A DNA stretch of 55,092 bases from Alphaproteobacteria bacterium (GTDB lineage Bacteria > Pseudomonadota > Alphaproteobacteria > Reyranellales > Reyranellaceae): assembly GCA_016870115.1 (NCBI GenBank), contig VGCH01000020.1, positions 1 through 55,092 of the forward strand. The letters are read 5' to 3'. Below the pieces are notes generated by a model. It was not told where the DNA came from. It made no database searches and saw only the letters and a program-made list of their open reading frames with translations. This document shows, in pieces, positions 7,364 through 48,483 of the stretch (its first letter is position 1; each line of letters starts with the position of its first letter). Made by a program: the position numbers and the translations under genes.

Positions 7364-8065
7364 CTACCTCGGGCGAACTCCGTCCCGACCGACCTCCAGC
7401 CGCCAGCGATCCGTGGTTTGGGCGCGGCGCGGATCCCGGTTCGGGTCGCGCCGCAGCTCCGCAGGCTCGAGTGCGCGCGGTCGGTTTACCGGAGTGGCCA
7501 CGGGGTCGAGGTCGAACAGAACCGCCGCGAACGACGCGCGCGCGAAGCCATCCGTCGGGTGATGGTAGGCCTGAAAGCCCCAGCTACCCGCGCGACACGA
7601 CGCGACGCTCCACCAGAAATCGGCGTCATGCAGAGTGAGCTGTGCCGGCGCCGGTCCGAAGGCGGCGCTCTGCTCCAGAGCGGCTGTCAGGCGGCTCATG
7701 TCGGCGGCGGCGAGGAGCCGCGTCCCGCGCTTGGGACGCCACGGCAGGAGCAGATCGCCTGCTGAGGAGACGGAGATCGCCGACGCCGCGCCTTGCTCGC
7801 CCCAGACCATGGATGAGAGATGCGCGGTTCCATCGGCCATTACCTCGAGCTCGTAGGCGCGGACTTGCTCCGCCCAGACGGCGTTGTAGATCAGTCGAAT
7901 TCGAGTCGGGGTCCCGGCCCGACACCCGCTCCGGACGTCCGTACCAGCGGCATGGTCGAACCAGTTGAAGCTGCGCAGAACCGGCTCGGCCACCGCCTGC
8001 GCCGAGGCGGGGCCGCCCAGGCACGAGACCATCGCCAGTCCCAGCATCATCCGACGCAAAGCCAT
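7364..8065 (-). CDS. secreted protein of unknown function upstream of clpS
   Basis: This 233-residue protein begins [18 protein letters not shown] and has a good Sec signal peptide with likely cleavage after PASAQA. The mature part includes [38 protein letters not shown] and a charged Arg-rich tail. Two Cys residues in the mature region could form a disulphide. I recognise no family. The stop is two bases from the clpS start on the same strand, so it probably shares a transcript with clpS-clpA, although a periplasmic protein has no obvious link to that cytoplasmic protease. Conservation of the pairing would show whether the link matters. Confidence 0.7.
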
Positions 8066-8123
8066 TTCGCCCTCCGTTGTCCGACGGTGCCAACCAAAAG
8101 GGGCAGCCGCGCGGCAAGCTGCG

Positions 8124-20643: not shown

Positions 20644-22281
20644 GTGATCTGGCGGCTGGGCGCGATGGCCGCGGCCCTGCTGGTCGCTTTGCCGCTGTTC
20701 GGCGTGTTGGGGAGCGTCTTCATCTGGCAAGGCGAGGTCTGGCGACACGTCGCCCAGACTCAACTGAGCGCCATCCTGCTCAATAGTGCCATCCTCCTTC
20801 TCGGGGTGGGCATCGGTAGCGTGACCATCGGCGCTGGGTCGGCCTGGTTGGTGACGCTGCATCGCTTTCCCGGCAGTCGCATCCTCGAATGGGCGCTGTT
20901 GCTGCCGCTGGTGATGCCGACCTACATCATCGGATACGCCTACGCGGACCTGCTGGCGTTCGCAGGACCCGTCCAGACCGGGCTGCGAGGCTCCATGGGG
21001 TGGGGTCGCGGCGACTATTGGTTTCCGGACATCCAGAGCGTCTGGGGCGTCGCCGCCCTCTTCACGCTCGTGCTCTACCCCTATGTCTACATCGCCGCTC
21101 GCGCGGCCTTCCTTGCCCAGTCCCTGACGCTCCTTGAGGCGAGCCGGATTCTGGGGCACGGGCCCTGGCGCACGTTCCTGCGCGTCGGTCTGCCGCTCGC
21201 GCGACCCGCCATCGTCGCCGGCGCCGCCCTTGCACTACTGGAAACGTTGGCCGACTTCGGCACCGTCCAGTACTTCGGCGTCACGACCTTCACAACGGCG
21301 ATCTACAATACCTGGTTCGGACTGGGCAGCCGCGACGGCGCGGCGCAACTGGCGCTCGCGCTGCTGGTTCCGGCGCTCCTGCTGGTCTGGGTCGAGCGGC
21401 AATCGCGCGGCCAGGCCCGCTTCTACCGCCTCGCCAACCTCTCCAAGTCGGCGGAAGCCACACCGCTGACACGGGCCGCGGGTTGGGGCGCGACGGCAGT
21501 CTGCGCCCTGCCGATCCTCTTCGGTTTCGCCGTGCCAACGCTGCACCTGCTGCGCTTGGCCCTGCTGGGCGATGGCTCCTTCACCGATCCGCGATTCCTG
21601 CGCGAGGCCGTGAACAGCTTGGCGCTCGCCACACTTGCCGCGCTCGCGATCGTGTCTCTCGCTATCTTCATGGCATACGCGGGCCGGCTGGTGCGCCGCC
21701 GCGCGTTCAACGCAACGCTCGAAGTGGCCTCGATGGGGTATGCGATTCCCGGCACCGTGATCGCGGTCGGAATTCTGGTGCCGCTCGCACTCTTTGATCG
21801 CCACATCGACGCCACGGCGCGAGCCGCCTTTGGCCTCTCGCCCGGGCTCCTCCTCAGCAGCACGATCGCGGCGCTGCTGATCGCCTATGTCGTGCGCTTT
21901 CTCGCGGTGGGAATCGCCAATGTCACGCCGGCACTGGCGGCGATCGATCCGGCCATGGACTGGAGCGCGCGCATCCTGGGCGCCTCCCCACGCGAGGTGC
22001 TGGCCCGCATCCACATGCCAATGCTGCGGGGGCCCGCGCTGGCAGCGGGGCTGATCGTGTTCGTCGAGGTGGTGAAGGAGCTGCCGGCGACGCTGCTCAT
22101 TCGGCCGTTCAACTTCGATACGCTGGCGGTGGGTGTCTACCAGCTCGCCAAGGACGAACGGCTCGCCCAGGCTGCGGTCGGCTCGATCCTGATCGTGGCA
22201 GCCGCAGTGGGTCCCGTGATCCTGCTCAGCCGGGCGATCGCCCGTCGTGACGGCGCTACTTCCAGCCCGCCCGATCCATGA
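20644..22281 (+). CDS. iron(III)-type ABC transporter permease (fused double permease)
   Basis: This 545-residue inner-membrane protein contains two tandem binding-protein-dependent permease domains, the arrangement of FbpB/SfuB/AfuB ferric-iron importers. The first half has LPLVMPTYIIGYAYADLLAF and the second EVASMGYAIPGTVIAVGI; the EAA-like coupling loops are EASRILGHGPWRTFLRVGLP and DWSARILGASPREVLARIHM. The GTG at 20644 has GGAGA five bases upstream. ATGs at 20599 and 20620 keep the frame but lie inside the terminator. The 3' end overlaps the convergent binding-protein gene by 26 bases. No ATPase gene for the system is present nearby. Confidence 0.88.
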   Translation: MIWRLGAMAAALLVALPLFGVLGSVFIWQGEVWRHVAQTQLSAILLNSAILLLGVGIGSVTIGAGSAWLVTLHRFPGSRILEWALLLPLVMPTYIIGYAYADLLAFAGPVQTGLRGSMGWGRGDYWFPDIQSVWGVAALFTLVLYPYVYIAARAAFLAQSLTLLEASRILGHGPWRTFLRVGLPLARPAIVAGAALALLETLADFGTVQYFGVTTFTTAIYNTWFGLGSRDGAAQLALALLVPALLLVWVERQSRGQARFYRLANLSKSAEATPLTRAAGWGATAVCALPILFGFAVPTLHLLRLALLGDGSFTDPRFLREAVNSLALATLAALAIVSLAIFMAYAGRLVRRRAFNATLEVASMGYAIPGTVIAVGILVPLALFDRHIDATARAAFGLSPGLLLSSTIAALLIAYVVRFLAVGIANVTPALAAIDPAMDWSARILGASPREVLARIHMPMLRGPALAAGLIVFVEVVKELPATLLIRPFNFDTLAVGVYQLAKDERLAQAAVGSILIVAAAVGPVILLSRAIARRDGATSSPPDP

Positions 22282-35907: not shown

Positions 35908-36240
35908 ATGAACAATCTCTACCGACTGCCCGAGGGCCGCCCCGGGCGCCGGATCGTTTCCTTCGACCGTCGTGAATTGCGCGAATTGCTCGGTGTCTAT
36001 TCCAGCCGGGTGGCGAGCGGCGAGTGGCGCGACTACGCGATGGATTTCCGGCCCGGGATCGCGATCTTCTCGATTTTCCGGCACACCGCCGAGCAGCCGC
36101 TGTTTGCCATCGCCAAAGTCGCGGGCGGCAGCCAGCGCGGCTACACCGTGTTCAACGGCCCGCGCAAGCTCGCCCACGGCGACGATCTCACAGACGTGCT
36201 CGCGATCTTCGATCGCAAGCTGCGGCTGCTGCTGGGATAG
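35908..36240 (+). CDS. DUF2794 domain-containing protein
   Basis: This 110-residue cytoplasmic protein contains the segment LLGVYSSRVASGEWRDYAMD and FSIFRHTAEQPLFAIAKV, which I recognise as DUF2794, found largely in Alphaproteobacteria and without known function. ATG 35908 is chosen; the frame is open further upstream without family similarity. It is a single gene between divergent and convergent neighbours. Confidence 0.8.
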   Translation: MNNLYRLPEGRPGRRIVSFDRRELRELLGVYSSRVASGEWRDYAMDFRPGIAIFSIFRHTAEQPLFAIAKVAGGSQRGYTVFNGPRKLAHGDDLTDVLAIFDRKLRLLLG

Positions 36241-36244
36241 AGCC

Positions 36245-36460
36245 TTACTGCTTCTTGTCGGTGGTCGCGGCGCCGACGCCGGCGCCCAGGAGGCCACCAA
36301 CCACAGCCGTGCCGATAATCGGCAAGCCAGTCAGGGCGCCAACCGCCACGCCGGTGCCGGCCCCGATGGCGCCGCCGGTGGCGGCCCGCTGGCCCCAGGT
36401 GTCGCCGCAGGCGGCAAGCGGCAGGGCGAGAAGAACGATCGCGAGAGGCTTCAGCGACAT
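36245..36460 (-). CDS. glycine-zipper lipoprotein, 71 residues
   Basis: A small protein starts MSLKPLAIVLLALPLAACGD, with a lipobox LAAC and then Gly/Ala-rich sequence (GGAIGAGTGVAVGALTGL, GGLLGAGVGAATT) typical of glycine-zipper outer-membrane lipoproteins. AGGGAGA five bases before ATG 36460 is a good ribosome-binding site and fixes this start over upstream codons. Such proteins often respond to envelope stress; no specific role is visible. Confidence 0.85.
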   Translation of the reverse strand: MSLKPLAIVLLALPLAACGDTWGQRAATGGAIGAGTGVAVGALTGLPIIGTAVVGGLLGAGVGAATTDKKQ

Positions 36461-36540
36461 AACCGTCTCCCTAGGAGCTGGGCGCCAATCGCGCCCGCAA
36501 GCCACGTTACGCCCCGCATCGGGGCTGGATGACGGCACCA

Positions 36541-36600
36541 TTAAGGAATTTATGCATCACGTCAATAAATTGTTTTAATTCATTGAAATATAAAAATATT
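36541..36600. other. AT-rich segment
   Basis: Only 11 of 60 bases are G or C, against about two-thirds in the surroundings. It lies between the YeeE-like operon and the glycine-zipper lipoprotein, both on the minus strand, and probably contains the lipoprotein promoter or an UP-like element. A minus-strand TTGACG (36559-36564) is a possible -35 box, but no convincing -10 box follows at 16-18 bases. Confidence 0.5.
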
Positions 36601-37043
36601 CACTGGACTTGCGGGGCTGCGTCCCGCGCAGCTACGACGCGAGCGGCCGCCATGCCGGCCAGCATGGCCGCCACGAACAGGACCGGCTCCCAGCGACCAA
36701 GGCCGAGCGCGGTGAAGGCGGGGCCCGGACAAAACCCGGCGAGCCCCCAGCCCACGCCGAACAAGGCCGCGCCGCCCACCAGCGGCAGGTCCAAGCGACT
36801 GAGCCTCGGCAAATGGAACTGCTCCGCGAGCAGCGGCTGCCCGCGGCGCCAAGCCAGCCGATAGCCGAGGAAGGTCACGGCGACGGCGCCGGCCATCACA
36901 AAGGCGAGGCTGGGGTCCCACCCGCCCCGGGCGATCGCCGCAATATCGAGGAAATTCAGGACCTTGGCCGGATTGGACATACCGGACAGCACGAGCCCCA
37001 ATCCGAAGACGAGTCCGATGCCGAAGGCGATGGCGATGCGCAT
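36600..37043 (-). CDS. YeeE/YedE family transporter half, PmpB-like
   Basis: The 147-residue membrane protein has hydrophobic segments (IAFGIGLVFGLGLVLSGM, AFVMAGAVAVTFLGYRL) and the conserved GWGLAGFCPGPAFTALG, whose Cys lies in the selectivity region of YeeE/YedE sulfur-compound transporters. It corresponds to one half of full-length YeeE. It starts three bases after the gene for the other half. Confidence 0.88.
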   Translation of the reverse strand: MRIAIAFGIGLVFGLGLVLSGMSNPAKVLNFLDIAAIARGGWDPSLAFVMAGAVAVTFLGYRLAWRRGQPLLAEQFHLPRLSRLDLPLVGGAALFGVGWGLAGFCPGPAFTALGLGRWEPVLFVAAMLAGMAAARVVAARDAAPQVQ

Positions 37044-37046
37044 GGC

Positions 37047-37475
37047 TCAGCCTCCCATTCGCGTGACGAAGACGGTGAGCGCCCCCGTCGCCATGAAGGT
37101 CCCGACGGCGACCAGCGAGCGCACGGAGAGGCGCGAGAGCCCGCACACCCCATGCCCCGAGGTGCAGCCCGAGCCCCAGACCGACCCGAACCCGACCAGC
37201 AGACCCGCCGCCACCAGAAGCGGCACGCTCGCCACCATCGTCGCGGCCGGCAGCTTACCCGCGACCAGCGCCCACAAAAGCGGCGCGGCGATCAGACCCG
37301 CGACAAAGGCCAGCCGCTCGCTGTCCCGCCCGTCGCGCGCCGGCGGCAGCAGCGGGGCCGCGATCCCGCTCACCCCCGCGATCCGCCCGCTGGTCAGCAT
37401 CATCGCCGCGGCCGCCAGCCCGATCAGCGCGCCGCCCACCAGCGATGCGAGTGGCGTGAACTCCGTCGGTGCCAT
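37047..37475 (-). CDS. YeeE/YedE family transporter half, PmpA-like
   Basis: This 142-residue membrane protein carries the family signature GSGCTSGHGVCGLSRLSVRS. Full-length YeeE (TsuA) imports thiosulfate through a path lined by conserved Cys; the split PmpA/PmpB form is thought to handle sulfur compounds too. Together with the downstream half it should form one transporter. No sulfurtransferase or regulator gene adjoins it, so the substrate is left open. Confidence 0.88.
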   Translation of the reverse strand: MAPTEFTPLASLVGGALIGLAAAAMMLTSGRIAGVSGIAAPLLPPARDGRDSERLAFVAGLIAAPLLWALVAGKLPAATMVASVPLLVAAGLLVGFGSVWGSGCTSGHGVCGLSRLSVRSLVAVGTFMATGALTVFVTRMGG

Positions 37476-37508
37476 GGCCCCTCTCCCGTTCGTTAGCTGT
37501 GCCGGCGC

Positions 37509-39155
37509 CTAGGACACCGGATGCAGCCCCGGCGCCTCCTGGCCGGTGCGCGCGACATACTCTGTGTAGCCGCCGCCATATTGATGCACGCCCTCGGGCG
37601 TCAGCTCCAGCACGCGATTGGAGAGCGCCGCCAGAAAATGCCGGTCGTGGCTCACGAACAGCATCGTGCCCTCGAACGCCTCAAGGGCCGCGACCAGCAC
37701 TTCCTTGGTCGCCATGTCGAGATGGTTGGTGGGCTCGTCGAGCACCAGGAAGTTGGGCGGATCGAACAGCATCAGCGCCATCACCAGCCGCGCCTTCTCG
37801 CCGCCCGACAGCACGCGGCACGGCTTCTCGACATCGTCGCCGGAGAAACCGAAGCAGCCCGCCAGCGACTTCAGCGCGCCCGTCCCAGCTTGCGGAAACG
37901 CCGCATCCAGCGACTCGAACACCGTCTGGTCGCCGTCCAGCAGATCCATCGAATGCTGGGCGAAGTAGCCCATGCGCACGCTGGCCCCGATAGTCACGCT
38001 GCCCCGGTCCGGCCCGATGCCTTGCGCCGGGTCCGCCGCGCCCGCCACCAGCTTCAGGAGCGTCGACTTGCCCGCCCCGTTGGCGCCCAGCACGCACCAG
38101 CGTTCCTTGCGACGCAGCAGGAAATCGAGCCCGCTATAGATCGGCTGCGCGCCATAGCTCTTGTGCACGTCGCGGAAGCTCGCCACGTCGTCGCCCGAAC
38201 GCGGCGGCTCGCGGAACTCGAACCGCACCGACTGGCGGCGGCGCGGCGGCTCGACCTTCTCGATCTTGTCGAGCTTCTTCACCCGGCTCTGCACTTGCGC
38301 GGCATGGCTCGCCCGCGCCTTGAAGCGCTCGATGAACTTCATCTCCTTGGCGAGCATCGCCTGCTGGCGCTCGAACTGCGCCTGGCGCTGGCGCTCGCCG
38401 ATCGCGCGCTGCGCCTCGTAGAAATCGAAGTTGCCGGAATAGGTCGTGAGGCCGCCGCCATCGATCTCGATCACCTTGCCGACGACGCGGTTCATGAACT
38501 CGCGATCGTGCGAGGTCATCAGCAGCGCGCCCTCGTAGCGCGCGAGAAACGCCTCCAGCCAGATCAGGCTCTCGAGATCGAGATGGTTGGAGGGCTCGTC
38601 GAGCAGCATGCCGTCGGGCCGCATCAGCAGGATGCGCGCGAGCGCCACCCGCATCTTCCAGCCGCCGGACAGCAGACCGACATCGCCGTCCATGCGCTCC
38701 GCGCTGAACGACAGCCCCGCCAGCACCTCGCGCGCGCGGGCCTCCAGCGCATAGCCGTCCAGCTCCTCGAAGCGCCCCTGCACCTCGCCATAGCGCGCGA
38801 CCAACGCATCCATCTCGTCGGCGCGCGCGGGATCGACCATCGCCGCCTCGAGCGTCGCCATCTCGGCCGCGAGCGCGCTCACCGGACCGACACCATCCAT
38901 GACCGCCGCGACCGCGCTCATGCCCGACATCTCGCCGACATCCTGGCTGAAATAGCCGATGGTCATGCCCGGATCGATCGTCACCTGGCCATCGTCGGGC
39001 TGCTCCTGGCCCGCGATCATGCGGAACAGCGTCGTCTTGCCCGCGCCATTGGGCCCGACCAGCCCCGCCTTCTCGCCCTTCTGCAGGCCCATCGAGGCGT
39101 CGATGAGCAGGATCTGATGGCCGTGCTGCTTGCTGATGTTGTCGAGGCGGATCAT
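37509..39155 (-). CDS. ABC-F family ATPase
   Basis: ABC-F proteins lack membrane domains and act on the ribosome, rescuing stalls or giving antibiotic resistance. The 548-residue protein has two ABC cassettes: Walker A GPNGAGKTT and GANGAGKST, signatures LLSGGW and LSGGE, Walker B LLDEPSNHLDLESL and LVLDEPTNHLDMAT, joined by a basic helical linker (AMLAKEMKFIERFKARASHA). Length and layout are closest to the YbiT/Uup group; the exact subfamily is not assigned. Confidence 0.93.
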   Translation of the reverse strand: MIRLDNISKQHGHQILLIDASMGLQKGEKAGLVGPNGAGKTTLFRMIAGQEQPDDGQVTIDPGMTIGYFSQDVGEMSGMSAVAAVMDGVGPVSALAAEMATLEAAMVDPARADEMDALVARYGEVQGRFEELDGYALEARAREVLAGLSFSAERMDGDVGLLSGGWKMRVALARILLMRPDGMLLDEPSNHLDLESLIWLEAFLARYEGALLMTSHDREFMNRVVGKVIEIDGGGLTTYSGNFDFYEAQRAIGERQRQAQFERQQAMLAKEMKFIERFKARASHAAQVQSRVKKLDKIEKVEPPRRRQSVRFEFREPPRSGDDVASFRDVHKSYGAQPIYSGLDFLLRRKERWCVLGANGAGKSTLLKLVAGAADPAQGIGPDRGSVTIGASVRMGYFAQHSMDLLDGDQTVFESLDAAFPQAGTGALKSLAGCFGFSGDDVEKPCRVLSGGEKARLVMALMLFDPPNFLVLDEPTNHLDMATKEVLVAALEAFEGTMLFVSHDRHFLAALSNRVLELTPEGVHQYGGGYTEYVARTGQEAPGLHPVS

Positions 39156-39280
39156 GGGGTCGCGTGGTGGCGGGGAATGGGCCTCGATGCAAGTTGCAGC
39201 TCGACCAAAGTATTGCGGCCGATTGTCCCCTTAACTCCGCTCCCCCGCAGCTCCTGCCCGACGGTAACCAAGCCAGCTTG

Positions 39281-39398
39281 CGGACGGCGGTTCACCAGGT
39301 CGGACGGCAGACCGAGACCGCAGCCTCACGCCCTCAACTCGTCCTAGAAGAGCTCGTGCGAGGGCACGCCCCGCCTCATCTTCGTGCGCGCTGGCAGC
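39281..39398 (-). pseudogene. decayed internal fragment of guaA
   Basis: This stretch aligns without gaps to 41523-41640 inside the intact guaA; over the surrounding 120 columns I count about 95 identities. Read on the minus strand in the guaA frame it gives LPARTKMRRGVPSHELF, a stop, DELRA, a stop, then GCGLGLPSDLVNRRP, against [17 protein letters not shown] ... [11 protein letters not shown] in GuaA (residues about 354-393). Similarity ends abruptly on both sides. The rest of the 298-base gap shows no gene. Confidence 0.8.
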
Positions 39399-39453
39399 CG
39401 AGCCGCGCGGGGGCGCGCGAACCGCAGCGCGTGAGAACGGGAGGCCGTCCCGC

Positions 39454-39978
39454 CTATCTCCAGCCCGTGGCGCGATTGGTGCAACTCTCGATGGCGACGA
39501 ACACGTTCTCCATCGACGCGCCGAGGTTCCACTGGAAGCGCTTGTGGCCGGCATGCACGATGAGCGGCCCCCGGAAGCCCATCATGCGTGCAACAGTCTG
39601 CGTGTCGAGCGGCCGCCATGCTCTGCCGCCCTGGTTCCCATCCGCATCCGCGGTGTAGACGCCCGACCCCGGGGAACTGACCGAGATCGTCAGCGGCAGG
39701 CGAGGCTGCACCTGGATTTCCGGAATGCTGAGGCCGTACGCCCGATCGGCATTGAAAGCGATGCGCAGCATGGCGCGCTCGCCGTCGTAGAAGACGGCGG
39801 AACAGCGACTGAAGCTCCCCTTCTCGAAGATCCGGATGACTTCGCCGTTGCCGACCCGCCCCGCGGCTTCATTGCGATTCTGCGCCTGAGCCGTGCCGAG
39901 GGATGTCGCCGCTATCACGCCGGCGACCAGCACGGCCAGGCCCAGGCGAATCGGCAGAAAGGATACTCGCTCCGCCAT
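39454..39978 (-). CDS. secreted protein of unknown function
   Basis: This 174-residue protein has a Sec signal peptide (LGLAVLVAGVIAATSLGTAQA, cleavage after AQA). The mature part includes GEVIRIFEKGSFSRCSAVFYD, a second Cys near the C-terminus (IESCTNRATGWR), and IPEIQVQPRLPLTISV. The two Cys suggest a disulphide. I recognise no family. It lies between the guaA relic and a methyltransferase gene in a patch of looser coding density, which suggests acquired DNA. Confidence 0.7.
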   Translation of the reverse strand: MAERVSFLPIRLGLAVLVAGVIAATSLGTAQAQNRNEAAGRVGNGEVIRIFEKGSFSRCSAVFYDGERAMLRIAFNADRAYGLSIPEIQVQPRLPLTISVSSPGSGVYTADADGNQGGRAWRPLDTQTVARMMGFRGPLIVHAGHKRFQWNLGASMENVFVAIESCTNRATGWR

Positions 39979-40302
39979 GCAACCTTCTCCATTTCCAAAG
40001 AGGCTTGCCGGGTGGCCAGCCCACCCCGGGGTTCACCAAAACGGTCGCCCCTACCCGCTCCCGTGAAAACGCGACGCTTCGACCTGCCGACCTGCCGGCG
40101 GGTTGGCACGGCCACCTGCGGCAGGGGTGGCAGGACCAACCCGGGAAGTTCCCTGGATTCTGCAAGCTTATGGGCAGACGTTGCGCTACAATCGCCAGAT
40201 ATTGAACAGACGAAGCCAGACGCTTCGAAGCTAGAGCAGGATGGCGCGGACAGACTCCCAGCGCCCACGATGAGCAAGCCCCCCACATCAGGTCCCACGA
40301 CA
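39979..40302. other. 324-base gap without recognisable gene
   Basis: I see no gene on either strand between the divergent secreted-protein and methyltransferase genes. It contains a 6-bp GGGTGG/CCACCC inverted repeat near its left end and a TACAAT box (40187-40192) without a convincing -35 partner. The methyltransferase frame is open through most of it, but the sequence there has no family signal. Confidence 0.5.
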
Positions 40303-41046
40303 ATGAAGAAAATTGTGAAGGCCCTCCTGCCGACGTCGGTGGTGGCCCGAATTCAGACGTTCAGAGAGCGTCAGGTCACAAAGAAGTTCAAGAACCTGGG
40401 CGCGCAGGAGATCTTCTCCGAGATCTACGAAAAGGGATTGTGGGGGAAGTCGGACAACCCGCAGCAACCCTTCTACTCAGGCATCGGGTCGCACGATAAG
40501 GGCGTCACCGAGATCTATCTGGATCGCGTTACGGCCTTCCTCAAGAGCTTGCCCAAGACACCGAGTGTCGTCGATCTCGGCTGCGGCGACTTTTCGGTCG
40601 GAGCGGAGTTGCGCAAGCACTGCGACGGCTACGTGGCGTGTGACATCGTCCCCAAGCTCGTTGAGCACAACAAAGTCCGCTTCAAGGATCTCAACGTCGA
40701 TTTTCGGGTGCTGGACCTGATCGCCGATCCCCTGCCCGCCGGCGATGTCGTCTTCATCAGGCAAGTCCTTCAGCATCTCTCGAACACGCAAATCCAGCAG
40801 CTGATTCCCAAGCTCTCTCCCAGCTACACCTACGTGATCCTGACGGAACACCTGCCGAAATCGGAGACGTTCGTCGCCAATCTCGACAAGTCAGCGGATA
40901 TCGACACACGCATTGGATACGAGAGCGGGATCGTCCTGACGAAGCCGCCGTTCAATCTCAAGGTCGCGGATGAACAGGTGCTCTGTGAGGCGCCGGTCGG
41001 CACGAGCAACACCGTGATTCGCACCACGCTCTATCGGCTCAAGTAG
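40303..41046 (+). CDS. class I SAM-dependent methyltransferase
   Basis: The 247-residue protein has the SAM-binding motif SVVDLGCGDFSVG, the acidic motif CDIVPKLVEHNK, and a post-motif FIRQVLQHLSNTQIQQL that fits class I methyltransferases. The N-terminus MKKIVKALLPTSVVARIQTF is basic and amphipathic. The substrate is unknown; related proteins occur among glycan or secondary-metabolite genes. ATG 40303 is chosen; ATG 40270 is an alternative. Composition is less GC-rich than the neighbours, consistent with transfer. Confidence 0.8.
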   Translation: MKKIVKALLPTSVVARIQTFRERQVTKKFKNLGAQEIFSEIYEKGLWGKSDNPQQPFYSGIGSHDKGVTEIYLDRVTAFLKSLPKTPSVVDLGCGDFSVGAELRKHCDGYVACDIVPKLVEHNKVRFKDLNVDFRVLDLIADPLPAGDVVFIRQVLQHLSNTQIQQLIPKLSPSYTYVILTEHLPKSETFVANLDKSADIDTRIGYESGIVLTKPPFNLKVADEQVLCEAPVGTSNTVIRTTLYRLK

Positions 41047-41100
41047 CCTTCAAACCCACTCATCAACGAGTGGCCGCCAAACACAGGCCGCGTGAGGCCC

Positions 41101-41135
41101 ACGCTCGCTCAGGTTCTTCCAACCTGGCTAAGCGT
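41101..41135. terminator. candidate hairpin between convergent methyltransferase and guaA
   Basis: CAGGTT/AACCTG (41110-41115 and 41121-41126) with a 5-base loop is nested in ACGCT/AGCGT arms. The placement between two convergent stops suits a bidirectional terminator, but neither side has a T-run. Confidence 0.35.
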
Positions 41136-41150
41136 CGTCGCCTGTTGCCC

Positions 41151-42701
41151 TCACTCCCACTCGATCGTCCCCGGCGGCTTTGACGTGATGTCGTAGGTCA
41201 CGCGATTGATGCCCCGCACCTCGTTGATGATGCGGTTGGCGACGCGGCCGAGGAACGCGTGGTCGAACGGGAAGTAATCCGCCGTCATGCCGTCGGTCGA
41301 AGTGACCGCGCGTAGCGCGCAGGCCTGGTCGTAGGTACGGCCATCGCCCATCACGCCCACGGTGCGGACCGGCAGCAGCACGGCGAAGGCCTGCCAGATC
41401 TCGTCATAGAGGCCCGACTTGCGGATCTCGTCGAGATAGACGGCATCGACTTCGCGCAGGAGGTCGAGCTTCTCTCTGGTGATGTCGCCCGGAATGCGGA
41501 TCGCGAGGCCGGGGCCGGGGAACGGATGGCGGTTCACCAGATCAGGCGGCAGGCCGAGCTCGCGGCCCAAGGCCCTCACCTCGTCCTTGAAGAGCTCGCG
41601 CAAGGGTTCGACCAGCTTCATCTTCATGCGTGCGGGCAGCCCGCCGACATTGTGATGGCTCTTGATCGTGACCGAGGGGCCGCCGGTGAATGAGACCGAT
41701 TCGATCACGTCCGGATAGAGCGTGCCCTGGGCCAGGAACTCAGCGCCGCCGATCTTCTTCGCCTCGGCGTCGAAGACGTCGATGAACAGCGCGCCGATGG
41801 TCTTGCGCTTCTGTTCCGGGTCGGTGACGCCGGCCAGCGCCTTCAGGAACTGCTCCGAGGCGTCGGCGTGGATCAGCGGGATGTTGTAGTGGTCGCGGAA
41901 CAGCCGCACGACCTGCTCAGCCTCGTCCTTCCGAAGGAGTCCGTGGTCGACGAACACGCATTGCAGCTGATCGCCGATCGCCTCATGCAGCAGCACGGCC
42001 ACAACGGAGGAATCGACGCCGCCGGACAGGCCGCAGATCACCTTGCCGCGCCCCACCTGGCGGCGGATATCGGCCAGCGCGCGCTCGCGGAACGCCGCCA
42101 TCGTCCAATCGCCGCGCGCACCCACGATGCCGAGCGCGAAATTGCGCAGGAGCTTGGCGCCATCGGGCGTGTGCATCACCTCGGGATGGAACTGCAGCCC
42201 GTAGTAGCGCCGCTTCTCGTCGGCGATGGCGGCGAAGGGCGCGTTGGGGCTCGCCGCGATCACCTCGAAGCCGGCTGGCAGCTTCGTGACGCGATCGCCA
42301 TGGCTCATCCAGACCTGCTTGCGATCGCCCGGCGCCCAGACGCCATCGAACAGGGCGGAGCTTGCCTTGACCTCGACCTCGGCCCGGCCGAACTCGCGAT
42401 GATGGCCGCTCTCGACCGTGCCACCCAGCTGCTGCGCCATGGTCTGCTCGCCGTAGCAGATGCCCAGCACCGGCACGCCGGCGGTGAAGATCGCCGGATG
42501 CGCCGCGGGCGCTGCGCCCTCGGTCACAGAGGCAGGCCCGCCCGACAGGATGATGCCGCGCGGCGCGAATTCCTTGAGACGGGCCGGATCGACCGACTGG
42601 AACGGGTGGATCTCGCAATAGACCCCCGCCTCGCGCACACGCCGTGCGATCAGCTGCGTTACCTGGGAGCCGAAATCGACAATCAGAAGGCGGTCGGTCA
42701 T
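41151..42701 (-). CDS. guaA: GMP synthase (glutamine-hydrolysing)
   Basis: GuaA converts XMP to GMP using glutamine-derived ammonia. The 516-residue protein has the glutamine amidotransferase domain with nucleophile Cys82 in LGICYGEQ, the ATP-pyrophosphatase loop [10 protein letters not shown], and the dimerisation domain ending [13 protein letters not shown]. It ends the minus-strand group guaB / rsmB-GNAT-guaA. A decayed 118-base fragment of its own coding sequence lies about 2.2 kb to the left. Confidence 0.98.
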
Positions 42702-42764
42702 GGGCCGGTATAAGGCCCGGGGCCCCGTCGCTTCAAGCCGCTGGCGGTGTGGACAGTTGGCGAC

Positions 42765-43343
42765 CTACTCGGGCGCGAGACGCCCGCGATTGAGCGGTGC
42801 GCCGAGGTCGCGCCACAACCACGCGACCTCCTCGACCTCGGCCTCTCCCACGCGGTCCGTGCGCTCACCACAGACCACGCCGCCCAACCGTTCGTAGAAA
42901 AAGCGCGAAGGATTGTCGGCCACCATCCACAGCATGGCGGCGTGAAAGCCGTCCGACGTGAGTTGGCCGAAGAGCGCTGCCAGCAGCGCCCGACCCAGCC
43001 CGCGATTCTGGAAATCGGCATCAACATAGAGCGTATAGACCTCGCCCAGCCGCAGCTCGGCGGTATCGAGATCGTCGAGATCGAGCGCGCCGCCCTCCTC
43101 GCGGGCCGGCCCGCAGCTGCCGAACCCCACGATGCCCGCCTCGCGATCCTCGGCCACGAAGACGCCGCGCGCGTGGTCGGGATCGGCGAGCGCGCGCGAC
43201 CACCAGGCCGACTGGCGCACATCAGACATCGATACCAACAGGCTGTCGGGCAACAGTCCGGCATAGGCGCCCTGCCAGGTCTCGACATGGACCCGGCCGA
43301 TCGCCGCGGCATCGCTCGCCCGGGCGCGCCGGATCGTGGTCAC
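42765..43343 (-). CDS. GNAT family N-acetyltransferase
   Basis: The 192-residue protein shows the GNAT acetyl-CoA loop QNRGLGRALLAALF, preceded by the strand GEVYTLYVD and followed by NPSRFFYERLGGVVCGER. The GTG at 43343 overlaps the rsmB TGA (GTGA), which fixes the start and couples translation. The substrate cannot be told. The pairing with a 16S rRNA methyltransferase raises the possibility of a ribosome-related target, but this is a guess. Confidence 0.9.
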   Translation of the reverse strand: MTTIRRARASDAAAIGRVHVETWQGAYAGLLPDSLLVSMSDVRQSAWWSRALADPDHARGVFVAEDREAGIVGFGSCGPAREEGGALDLDDLDTAELRLGEVYTLYVDADFQNRGLGRALLAALFGQLTSDGFHAAMLWMVADNPSRFFYERLGGVVCGERTDRVGEAEVEEVAWLWRDLGAPLNRGRLAPE

Positions 43344-44716
43344 GCGGCGATCTCCGGTTCGGCCGCGGCCTCGCCTCGGCGCTGGAAGACGGCAGCGAAG
43401 AAACCATCGGTGCCATGCTGCCGCGGCGAGAGACGCAGCCAGGGACCTTCGGGCAGGCTGAGCGTCGCGCCCTCGCGCAGCACCTCGCCCAGCAGCGTGC
43501 CCACCGGCACCGCCTCGAAGTCGGGGTGTCGGGACAGGAACGCCTCGGCCTGCCGCTCGTTCTCCGGCGCCAGCACCGAGCAGGTCGCATAGACCAGTCG
43601 CCCGCCCGGCTTCACCAGCCGTTGCGCGGCATCGAGAATCGCGGCCTGCTTGGGCACCAGCTCCTCGAGGTCGACCGGCTGCAGTGACCAGCGGCCATCG
43701 GGATTGCGCCGCCAGGTGCCCGTGCCCGTGCAGGGCGCATCGACGAGGACGCGATCGAACGCCCCGCCGCGCCGCTTCAGCCACTTCCGGCTTTCCTCAT
43801 CGAGCGTGCGTCGCTCGACATTGTGGACGCCCGCGCGACGCAGACGCTGCGCCGAGCGATCGAGCCGCGTCTCCAGCACGTCGAGCGCCACGATGCGGCC
43901 CTTGTTCTCCATACCCGCGGCCATTGCGAGCGTCTTGCCGCCGGCGCCGGCGCAATAGTCGACGACCTGCATGCCCGGCTTGGCGTCGACCAGCGCGGCC
44001 ACGAGCTGCGAGCCCTCGTCCTGGATCTCGACCAGCCCGTCCTCGAAGGCGGGCGACGTCACGATCGAAAGGCGCCGCGCGAGTCGCAAGCCATCGCGCG
44101 CGAAGGGAGTCGGTTCGGTATCGACGCCGGCCTTGGCCAGCATCCCCCGGGCGCGCTCGGTATTCGCCTTGAGGCGATTGACGCGCAGATCGACCGGCGC
44201 GGGGGTCTCGAGGGCGGCGATCTCGCGCGGCCAATCGGGGCCGTAGCTCTCCGCCAGATGCGGCGCGATCCATTCCGGCACATTGGCCGCGACCCAGTCG
44301 GGTTGCTCGGGATGGTCCAGCGTATGGCCGTCCAGCGCGCGCAGGACGGCGTACTCGGCCTCGTCGAAGGTCATCGGCCGGTGGCGGCCACCGTCGAACA
44401 GCGCGTCGAGGTCCGCCAACGCATTGCGTTCGGCCAGAATGAGATGGGCGGCCACCAGCGCGCGCGGCGTCGGCTTGCGCACGCCGGTCCGTGCCAGCCA
44501 CCAGCCGAGCTGGCCGCGGCGGCGCAGAATGTCCCAGACGCGCTCCGACACGGCGCGTCGGTCGCCGCTGCCGATGAAGCGGCGGTTGCGAAAATATGCG
44601 TTGGCTGTGAGATCCGCCGGCCGCTCGGCGCGGCTGACGATCTCCTCCAGGAGTTCTATGGTCGCCTCGATGCGCGCGCCCGGTGTCACGACCCTGTCCG
44701 CTCCCTGCCCCGCCAC
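43340..44716 (-). CDS. RsmB-like rRNA (cytosine-C5)-methyltransferase
   Basis: This NOL1/NOP2/Sun family enzyme methylates cytosine C5, most likely C967 of 16S rRNA as RsmB does. The 458-residue protein has an N-terminal NusB-like helical region, the SAM site VVDYCAGAGGKTLAMAA, and the two catalytic Cys of the family (about 329 in DAPCTGTG and about 379 in YATCSVLAPEN). GTG 44716 lies only three bases from the divergent SGNH start; GTG 44689 is an alternative that would leave more room. It overlaps the following GNAT gene. Confidence 0.9.
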   Translation of the reverse strand: MAGQGADRVVTPGARIEATIELLEEIVSRAERPADLTANAYFRNRRFIGSGDRRAVSERVWDILRRRGQLGWWLARTGVRKPTPRALVAAHLILAERNALADLDALFDGGRHRPMTFDEAEYAVLRALDGHTLDHPEQPDWVAANVPEWIAPHLAESYGPDWPREIAALETPAPVDLRVNRLKANTERARGMLAKAGVDTEPTPFARDGLRLARRLSIVTSPAFEDGLVEIQDEGSQLVAALVDAKPGMQVVDYCAGAGGKTLAMAAGMENKGRIVALDVLETRLDRSAQRLRRAGVHNVERRTLDEESRKWLKRRGGAFDRVLVDAPCTGTGTWRRNPDGRWSLQPVDLEELVPKQAAILDAAQRLVKPGGRLVYATCSVLAPENERQAEAFLSRHPDFEAVPVGTLLGEVLREGATLSLPEGPWLRLSPRQHGTDGFFAAVFQRRGEAAAEPEIAA

Positions 44717-44719
44717 GCC

Positions 44720-45813
44720 ATGACGGCCGCGTCGCCGCGCCGGCCCGCGTCGAGACTGCGCGGGCCGCTCGTCAGTATCGCCACGGTCGCGCTCTGTCTA
44801 TTGGCGGCGGAGCTGACCGGACGGCTGCTCAGTCCCGGGGCGTCGCTTCTCCGTTGGCCCAACTACATCGTGCAGGCGACAGCGCCGGACCCCGAACACG
44901 GACGCGAGATGCGGCATGATCCGGCGCTGGGCCACGTCCCGGTCGCCGGCTTCACCGGCCTCTCGCGAGGGCGTCCCGTCACCTTCGACACCGACGGGCT
45001 GCGCGACCACGGGCGCCTCGGTCGCGGGCCCGTGGTCCTCGCGATGGGCGACTCCTACACCGAAGGCTACCGCGTGGAGGACGACGCGACCTGGCCAGCT
45101 GCCCTCCAGGGTCTCCTCACTCGCGACGTGCGCAATGGCGGCGTGCGCGCCTATGGCGTCGACCAGAGCGTGCTGCGCGCCGAGATCCTGGTGCCGTCAG
45201 TGAAACCTGCGACACTGGTCTTCGCTTTCATCGGCGATGACATCGACCGCACCGAGCTCTCGGTTCGCGACCATGTGCGCAAACCCTGGTTCGAGGTCGC
45301 GGGCGATCGGCTGGAGCTGCACGGCGTGCCAGTGCCGACGACCGACAGCCGGGCCGAGATCGGCCTCTGGCGACGCACGCTGGGGTACTCCTACGTCCTC
45401 GATTCGGTGCTCCGGCGCCTCGGCCGCGACAGCACCGAGACCTGGCTGGGCGCCTCGCGACGCCAACATGGCGATGGCGAGCGCGTGGCCTGCCTCGCGA
45501 TTGCCCGCCTCGCCACCCTCGCCCGCACGCACGCCATGAGCGTCCTGGTGGTCGCGCTTTACGATGACGACACGTGGCGCGACGAGGCCTCGCGCACCCA
45601 CGATCGCGTCGCGCGACCGCCCTGCTGGCCTGCGCGACCCGGCAGGGCCTCGGTGCGCTCGATACGTTCGACACGCTGGCGGCGGCGGGCGTCCCGCTTG
45701 AGCTCGGGCGCTACTACATCGACCGCCATTTCACCCGCGCTGGCAACGCGCTCGTCGCGCGGGCAATCGCCTCGGCGCTGCCTCCTGTTGAAGCGGCCGG
45801 TCCGCCGCGCTAA
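44720..45813 (+). pseudogene. SGNH hydrolase-like gene 1, frameshifted
   Basis: The first part (44720 to about 45605) encodes a membrane-anchored SGNH/GDSL-like protein: TM helix PLVSIATVALCLLAAELTG, GDSYTEGY with Ser about 112, and YGVDQSVL. Near 45607 the frame changes by one base. The continuation lies in the other frame and reads LACATRQGLGALDTFDTL and then YIDRHFTRAGNALVARAIA, which supplies the Asp-x-x-His/GN block of the family. One base appears to be missing between 45605 and 45610. Unshifted translation misses the stop at 45811 and runs in frame into gene 2. This is a pseudogene or a sequence error. It is a tandem paralogue of gene 2. Confidence 0.8.
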
Positions 45814-45826
45814 CTCCGCGCGGCCC

Positions 45827-48483
<2,657 letters not shown>

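Follow-up and report, generated by a model that had tools for sequence, protein, structure and literature searches.

How does a 119-nt piece of guaA, the gene for GMP synthase, come to lie behind the intact gene? The question is raised by a contig of a Reyranellaceae bacterium (VGCH01000020.1), of which a stretch of 55,092 nucleotides, referred to here as the window, was analysed. Is the piece a chance resemblance? Is it a local duplicate of guaA, a fragment of another species' gene, or something left behind when DNA moved in? And what does it say about the genes around it? The parts of the locus are the following (window coordinates):

41151-42701, minus strand: intact guaA (GMP synthase), the near anchor of the hotspot described below; open reading frame with Pfam GATase and GMP_synt_C
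40270-41046, plus strand: cargo gene for a class I SAM methyltransferase; 57.7% GC against 67.7% for the contig
39454-39978, minus strand: cargo gene for a 174-aa protein with no Pfam match, its start signal-peptide-like by eye
39281-39399, minus strand: guaA relic (scar), corresponding to guaA nt 1061-1179, codons 354-394, with in-frame TAG and TGA
39228-39280, minus strand: 53-nt stretch from the relic to the conserved block, where the rest of a displaced guaA 3' end would be expected
39215-39227, minus strand: GACAATCGGCCGC, a block conserved ahead of the ABC-F gene and recognised by eye; presumed start of non-hotspot DNA on this side
37509-39155, minus strand: gene for an ABC-F ATPase, anchor of the hotspot on its far side; open reading frame with Pfam ABC_tran (two stretches) and ABC_tran_Xtn, and orthologues in relatives

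The conserved block was noticed among the rows listed of a 26-region alignment, some regions of which lack it. Elsewhere in the window, a long open reading frame at 43823-46885 (plus strand), between an RsmB/F-like gene and guaB, appears by eye to contain two similar SGNH-hydrolase-like stretches in succession (GDSYTEGY..., GDSYTHGD...; 44700-46885).

The relic and its decay

The original prediction, made from the letters of the window, described a decayed partial guaA on the same strand as the gene, with two in-frame stops, sharp edges and about 95 identities over 120 gap-free columns. A repeat search, BLAST and an exact count bear out the decayed partial copy, its strand and its stops. The largest direct repeat within 36000-44000 pairs 39281-39399 with 41523-41641 (119 nt, 81%), and 39281-39398 matches exactly two places in its own genome at E<=0.001, the second with an E of 3e-25. 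The match is indeed ungapped and on the same strand, and the count needs only a small correction, to 96 identities in 119. The two copies are spaced 2242 nt from start to start, with a gap of 1751 nt between the relic and the 3' end of guaA. Could such a match arise by chance? Dinucleotide shuffles of 39151-39460 (n=200), each scored for its best ungapped 119-nt match to guaA, gave at most 60 identities (mean 54.6, sd 1.7). Against the 96/119 of the real sequence, a maximum of 60/119 rejects chance as the origin of the relic, and the idea that it might score no better than shuffled sequence is clearly set aside.

Is the piece still under selection as a coding sequence? One TGA and one TAG interrupt its guaA frame, and its differences from the genome's own guaA fall 4/10/9 on codon positions 1/2/3. 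The own guaA differs from three intact relatives by 3/0/9, 2/0/12 and 4/1/9, mostly at the third position. The differences of the relic lack this third-position bias, and it can therefore be regarded as dead, decaying as non-coding DNA; judged by its sequence, it is without function. Its edges are sharp in the alignment, as predicted, and were probably shaped by erosion.

The interval between guaA and the ABC-F gene

What kind of place is the relic found in? Of the 36 other family genomes, 13 (G004, G008, G010, G014, G016, G018, G020-G023, G028, G031 and G032) have an orthologue of the ABC-F gene behind guaA on the same contig and strand, with orthologues counted whether complete or shortened by truncation or the end of a contig; the interval between the two genes spans 1.8 to about 100 kb across these 13. 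The same order is also present in L124, a named Reyranella; in REYR1 (L125), where the genes are 734 bp apart; and in Stella vacuolata (L166), at a distance of 5.5 kb. Directly after the guaA stop the sequence changes from one to the next of the 22 guaA ends compared, except within the small groups G006/G016/G036 and G015/G027. When each 1.7-kb flank was aligned to the same side of the other genomes, the mean alignable fraction between 19 genomes was 0.74 before guaA versus 0.03 behind it (G028 stands out with 0.00 before and behind). Gene order and alignability across the family thus show that guaA and the ABC-F gene have long been neighbours and that the content of the interval is replaced between one genome and the next, which is what the comparison of the interval in relatives, proposed with the original prediction, brought out. 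Conserved anchors with hypervariable content between them are what is expected of a defence hotspot beside guaA.

What is carried in the interval? Sixteen of 28 hand-picked interval proteins of relatives match PADLOC models at E<1e-20, a count that speaks for presence and not enrichment, because the picks were non-random and had no matched control; a control of longest open reading frames upstream was dropped, since many of these looked like antisense artefacts (low GC3, by eye). The matches include TIR/SIR2 Argonaute partners and short Argonautes (G004, G018, G019, G028), IetS (G008, G017), DpdE and DrmMI (G016), QatC and RmrA (G031), Fic (G010), and type II methyltransferase and helicase models (G015). 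The interval of G004 holds a TIR-APAZ and short Argonaute pair at L083:2404-5459 (minus strand). SIR2-APAZ models also match L092, L098 and L100; short Argonaute neighbours were tested in L092 and L100.

The window's own interval is modest by this standard. Open reading frames and Pfam leave the 174-aa gene and the methyltransferase as its only plausible genes, and no integrase. PADLOC recognises neither of the two as a defence gene (0/2), the methyltransferase giving only a weak mad2 match of 28 bits. A search of the 36 other family genomes gave nothing for the methyltransferase at E<=1e-8 and a single distant homologue for the 174-aa protein (E<=0.001; G016, 36%, on a contig other than that of its guaA); neither gene has a counterpart in the other guaA/ABC-F intervals compared. 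A similar arrangement has been described in Stenotrophomonas maltophilia, whose guaA-pgrR defence island is, in the part of that account drawn on here, a guaA-flanked variable region with the greatest diversity of systems; guaA scars do not come up in that part (PMC11680222). The Reyranellaceae interval is likewise a variable region flanked by guaA, but it belongs to another class of bacteria, has another gene on its far side (ABC-F), and in the window carries two cargo genes that are not recognised defence genes.

Pieces of the far anchor also turn up inside the intervals. Fragments of the 5' part of ABC-F lie at L084:5429-5854 and in L086 (G014, guaA-strand coordinates 7704-8115), and the fragments in G008 and G014 are 87.0 and 89.0% identical to the ABC-F gene of other species versus 85.2 and 84.9% to their own. 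Such nearness to other species is in line with an insertion route, because leftovers of a donor should look so.

Recurrent guaA pieces and two routes of insertion

Is the relic a solitary accident? A blastn search with pooled family guaA genes over the fetched stretches returned 19 short matches, of which 14, in 11 of 28 genomes (some with partly incomplete intervals), were kept; the five dropped comprised two on the minus strand, one inside ABC-F, one just behind ABC-F and one of 29 nt. The 14 kept pieces and all eight pieces at named loci lie on the guaA strand and come from the last 40% of the gene, several extending to the stop codon. With own guaA as the query (E up to 1e-4, 6 kb behind versus 6 kb before the gene), 5 of 19 family genomes (4 of 18 without the window) have a piece behind the gene and 0 of 21 have one before it. 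The corresponding numbers at 80 loci of named alphaproteobacteria are 5 of 72 behind versus 0 of 74 before, the five being Reyranella L124, Magnetospirillum L135 and Bradyrhizobium L139, L144 and L148. The Bradyrhizobium 3' pieces are located downstream of intact guaA (L139:17009-17278; L144:15413-15553 and 20730-21121; L148) and measure up to about 400 nt. In Reyranella L124 one piece follows another, with 77-84% and 94% identity to the guaA of that genome; G019 has two scars as well, and G010 has a 584-nt piece, 93.7% like its own guaA, behind the Fic gene. Among the 13 testable scars, three match the guaA of their own genome best: one in G010 and two in G019, of which one is a tie. By its position, its strand and the part of guaA that it represents, the relic of the window is one more such scar, apparently eroded at both ends.

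Where do the scars begin? The 5' borders of 21 scars are scattered over guaA nt 952-1509, and there is therefore no single crossover point. All are within the last 39% of the gene, where they depart slightly from a uniform distribution (KS p=0.048); the list on which this test rests contains borders that are possibly eroded, a G031 border entered as 1380 for which BLAST gives 1393, and three weak scars (G015, G036 and G020, E about 1e-4 to 1e-8). As to why none of the 21 falls in the first 61% of guaA, longer repeats may have been lost by recombination.

The far ends of the scars offer a view of the ancestral arrangement. In G031 the displaced guaA 3' end reaches the stop region and goes on for about 4 nt into GACAATCRGYCGC, the block conserved ahead of ABC-F, and in G022 a guaA end, GATCGAGTGGGAGT, is found 5 nt before the ABC-F block. 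These guaA ends at the block indicate that ABC-F once directly followed guaA. Of 19 places tested for remnants of the guaA terminus before the block, 6 gave a significant result (p<0.02 each). In the window, where the relic is 53 nt from the block, the test for a guaA-terminus trace between them was not significant (p=0.18). And what of the DNA behind the scars? An 827-bp match of 95.5% identity links DNA 334 nt behind a scar in G019 with G009 DNA that begins 114 bp behind guaA, although shared cargo could account for it. The post-scar DNA of G027 and G025 matches other interval DNA of relatives, and that of the proximal L124 scar gives one 100-nt match. No match in relatives was found for the post-scar DNA of G010, G022, G004, the distal L124 scar and the window; for G010 the test is weak, as 675 bp follow guaA on the one G007 contig end used in the comparison.

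Could site-specific integration have produced these pieces? The 3' end of guaA in the window, GATCGAGTGGGAGTGA (41151-41166), contains the integration core GAGTGGGA. In the parts of the literature cited here, GIsul2 inserts at the guaA 3' end with this same core (PMC9376610), and integrative and conjugative elements of Mesorhizobium, an alphaproteobacterium, are found at guaA (PMC8627217). The family has comparable islands: a tyrosine integrase is located directly behind guaA in G006, G016, G018 and G036, whose guaA genes end GAATGA, and all four of these integrase-bearing relatives, when searched, proved to have a second copy of the guaA end, AATCGAGTGGGAGTGA (AATAGAGTGGGAGTGA in G006), on the guaA strand toward the ABC-F side. 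G016 and G018 have this second copy on the contig of guaA, at a distance of 76 and 94 kb, respectively; in G006 and G036 it lies on the contig that carries ABC-F. In G016 the second guaA end is at G016:C53:14396-14411 (L096) and the guaA end itself at G016:C53:90338-90353 (L097), with GAGTGGGA at both. Empty sites are seen as well. From its first base, the sequence after the G016 copy aligns to that behind guaA in G015 (77% over 279 columns), and the sequence after the G036 copy to that behind guaA in G027 (69% over 407 columns); for G018 and G006 none was found among the 23 guaA-downstream stretches compared.

Insertion by the integrase duplicates only about 16 nt, ending at the guaA stop. 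The long scars therefore imply another route, probably one-sided homologous insertion. The same fact bears on the proposal that a tyrosine-integrase island left the relic as an attR-type remnant, site-specific integration at GAGTGGGA having duplicated the 3' end of guaA. Islands, second guaA ends and the G016 and G036 empty sites show that the process operates in the family, yet the relic is an internal piece that stops 372 nt before the end of guaA, the scar 5' borders are spread over nt 952-1509, and the window interval has no second GATCGAGTGGGARTGA at up to 2 mismatches to go with the missing integrase (the genome has one exact copy, at guaA, and four 2-mismatch matches on other contigs). 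An att remnant is disfavoured on all these counts, and we regard it as very improbable. It is these features, an internal relic in place of the terminal 16 nt and the lack of integrase and second att site, that set the window apart from GIsul2 and the Mesorhizobium elements as described in the cited parts, with which the four island-bearing relatives share the integrase and the second guaA end and, for GIsul2, the core.

Origin of the relic and its meaning

Whose guaA did the relic come from? The original prediction had raised the possibility that it is closer to the guaA of another species. This is not clearly so: its best likelihood placement is as sister to its own guaA (AU p 0.80), in a tree that left out the guaA of G012 (L051) and the truncated RBC080. 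Among the best 15 of 63 branches, the 14 others trail by at most 1.5 lnL units, and the test rejects none of them (AU p 0.21-0.64). By plain identity the guaA of G028 comes out marginally ahead, at 81.2% of 117 nt versus 80.7% of 119 nt for own guaA. A sequence of 119 nt is too short to tell an own from a foreign parentage.

These numbers touch on two further explanations. One is that a foreign guaA fragment arrived from another species as part of the cargo. The slight advantage of G028 points this way, as do the ABC-F fragments of G008 and G014 that are nearer other species and the 10 of 13 scars for which own guaA is not the best match, so pieces of the anchors may be donor-derived; for the relic itself, the likelihood favours own guaA and the differences are within noise, which makes a foreign origin quite unlikely. 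The other is a tandem duplication of part or all of guaA in this lineage, with one copy almost wholly deleted and the intervening genes unrelated. The same relic would result if a plain local duplication were followed by deletions, and the sister placement, the shared strand and the nearness to guaA all agree with such a history. The placement is shared with the 14 branches just mentioned, however, and duplication leaves unexplained why pieces recur across genera at one place, behind guaA only, from its 3' part and beside hypervariable cargo. We consider it unlikely. The original prediction took the internal position of the relic as an argument for duplication and deletion, which is not supported as the full answer, since 5'-truncated guaA pieces recur in the same interval elsewhere.

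The best explanation, to which we give a probability of roughly 0.75, is that the relic is a displaced, eroded 3' piece of guaA left when foreign cargo inserted behind the gene. It builds on the guaA/ABC-F neighbourhood, the turnover of the interval, the recurrent 5'-truncated 3' pieces on the guaA strand and the G031 junction, all seen directly in the genomes compared, and from these we infer the insertion route. How might it have happened? In the lineage of the window, an incoming fragment would have recombined by homology in or upstream of guaA, bringing with it an intact guaA 3' end and the cargo. Its far end would have joined without homology inside the recipient guaA, by homology-facilitated illegitimate recombination or through a single crossover of a circle, and the 3' piece of the recipient gene would thereby have been left in front of ABC-F. 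Subsequent deletions would then have taken out guaA nt 1180 to the stop. The low GC content of the methyltransferase and the lack of a counterpart of the window cargo in other intervals support displacement; no relative has this scar or this cargo, so that the sequence of steps given above is a reconstruction. Both guaA as an integration target and an outside origin of the intervening genes, as contained in the original prediction, find support, and its account as a whole is only partly upheld.

Some observations fit displacement by insertion less well. Alone, the insertion model does not predict that scar borders are confined to the last 39% of guaA, nor their slight non-uniformity. A one-sided insertion also predicts scars of the recipient lineage, and the fact that own guaA is best for only three of 13 counts against it. 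Replacement of the guaA 3' ends could be the reason for this mismatch between scars and own guaA.

A comparable process has been proposed for Vibrio, where homology-facilitated illegitimate recombination was put forward for the arrays of T6SS orphan immunity genes and Rhs 3' ends (PMC5361080). As far as the cited part of that work goes, there too a conserved anchor takes on new downstream DNA while the displaced old DNA remains. The Vibrio arrays differ in consisting of toxin-immunity modules of which the immunity genes are kept, whereas in Reyranellaceae a housekeeping gene forms the anchor and dead pieces of it stay behind. The Reyranellaceae locus joins the known guaA integration targets and guaA-flanked defence islands, the recurrent long guaA scars being its less usual part. 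Neither a guaA defence hotspot in Reyranella nor recurrent long guaA 3' scars were recognised among the literature matches listed.

What, then, does the relic tell us? Alone it is an ordinary dead gene fragment, and its value is as a marker of the guaA/ABC-F insertion hotspot, which in relatives holds short Argonaute, IetS, DISARM-like and other defence genes. Two routes of insertion can be separated by what they leave behind, att repeats of 16 nt or long guaA scars. A wider reading, which we put forward tentatively as possible and somewhat short of probable, is that guaA, although essential to the cell, serves as the homologous anchor of a loading site independent of integrases, where incoming fragments replace the 3' end of the gene and stack often anti-viral cargo, each event leaving a datable 5'-truncated scar. 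If this is true, the interval is a readable fossil record of successive acquisitions across Alphaproteobacteria, of which the two stacked scars in L124 and the two in G019 would be examples. Scars of this kind would permit past acquisitions to be counted and ordered, and defence islands to be found through truncated copies of their anchor genes.
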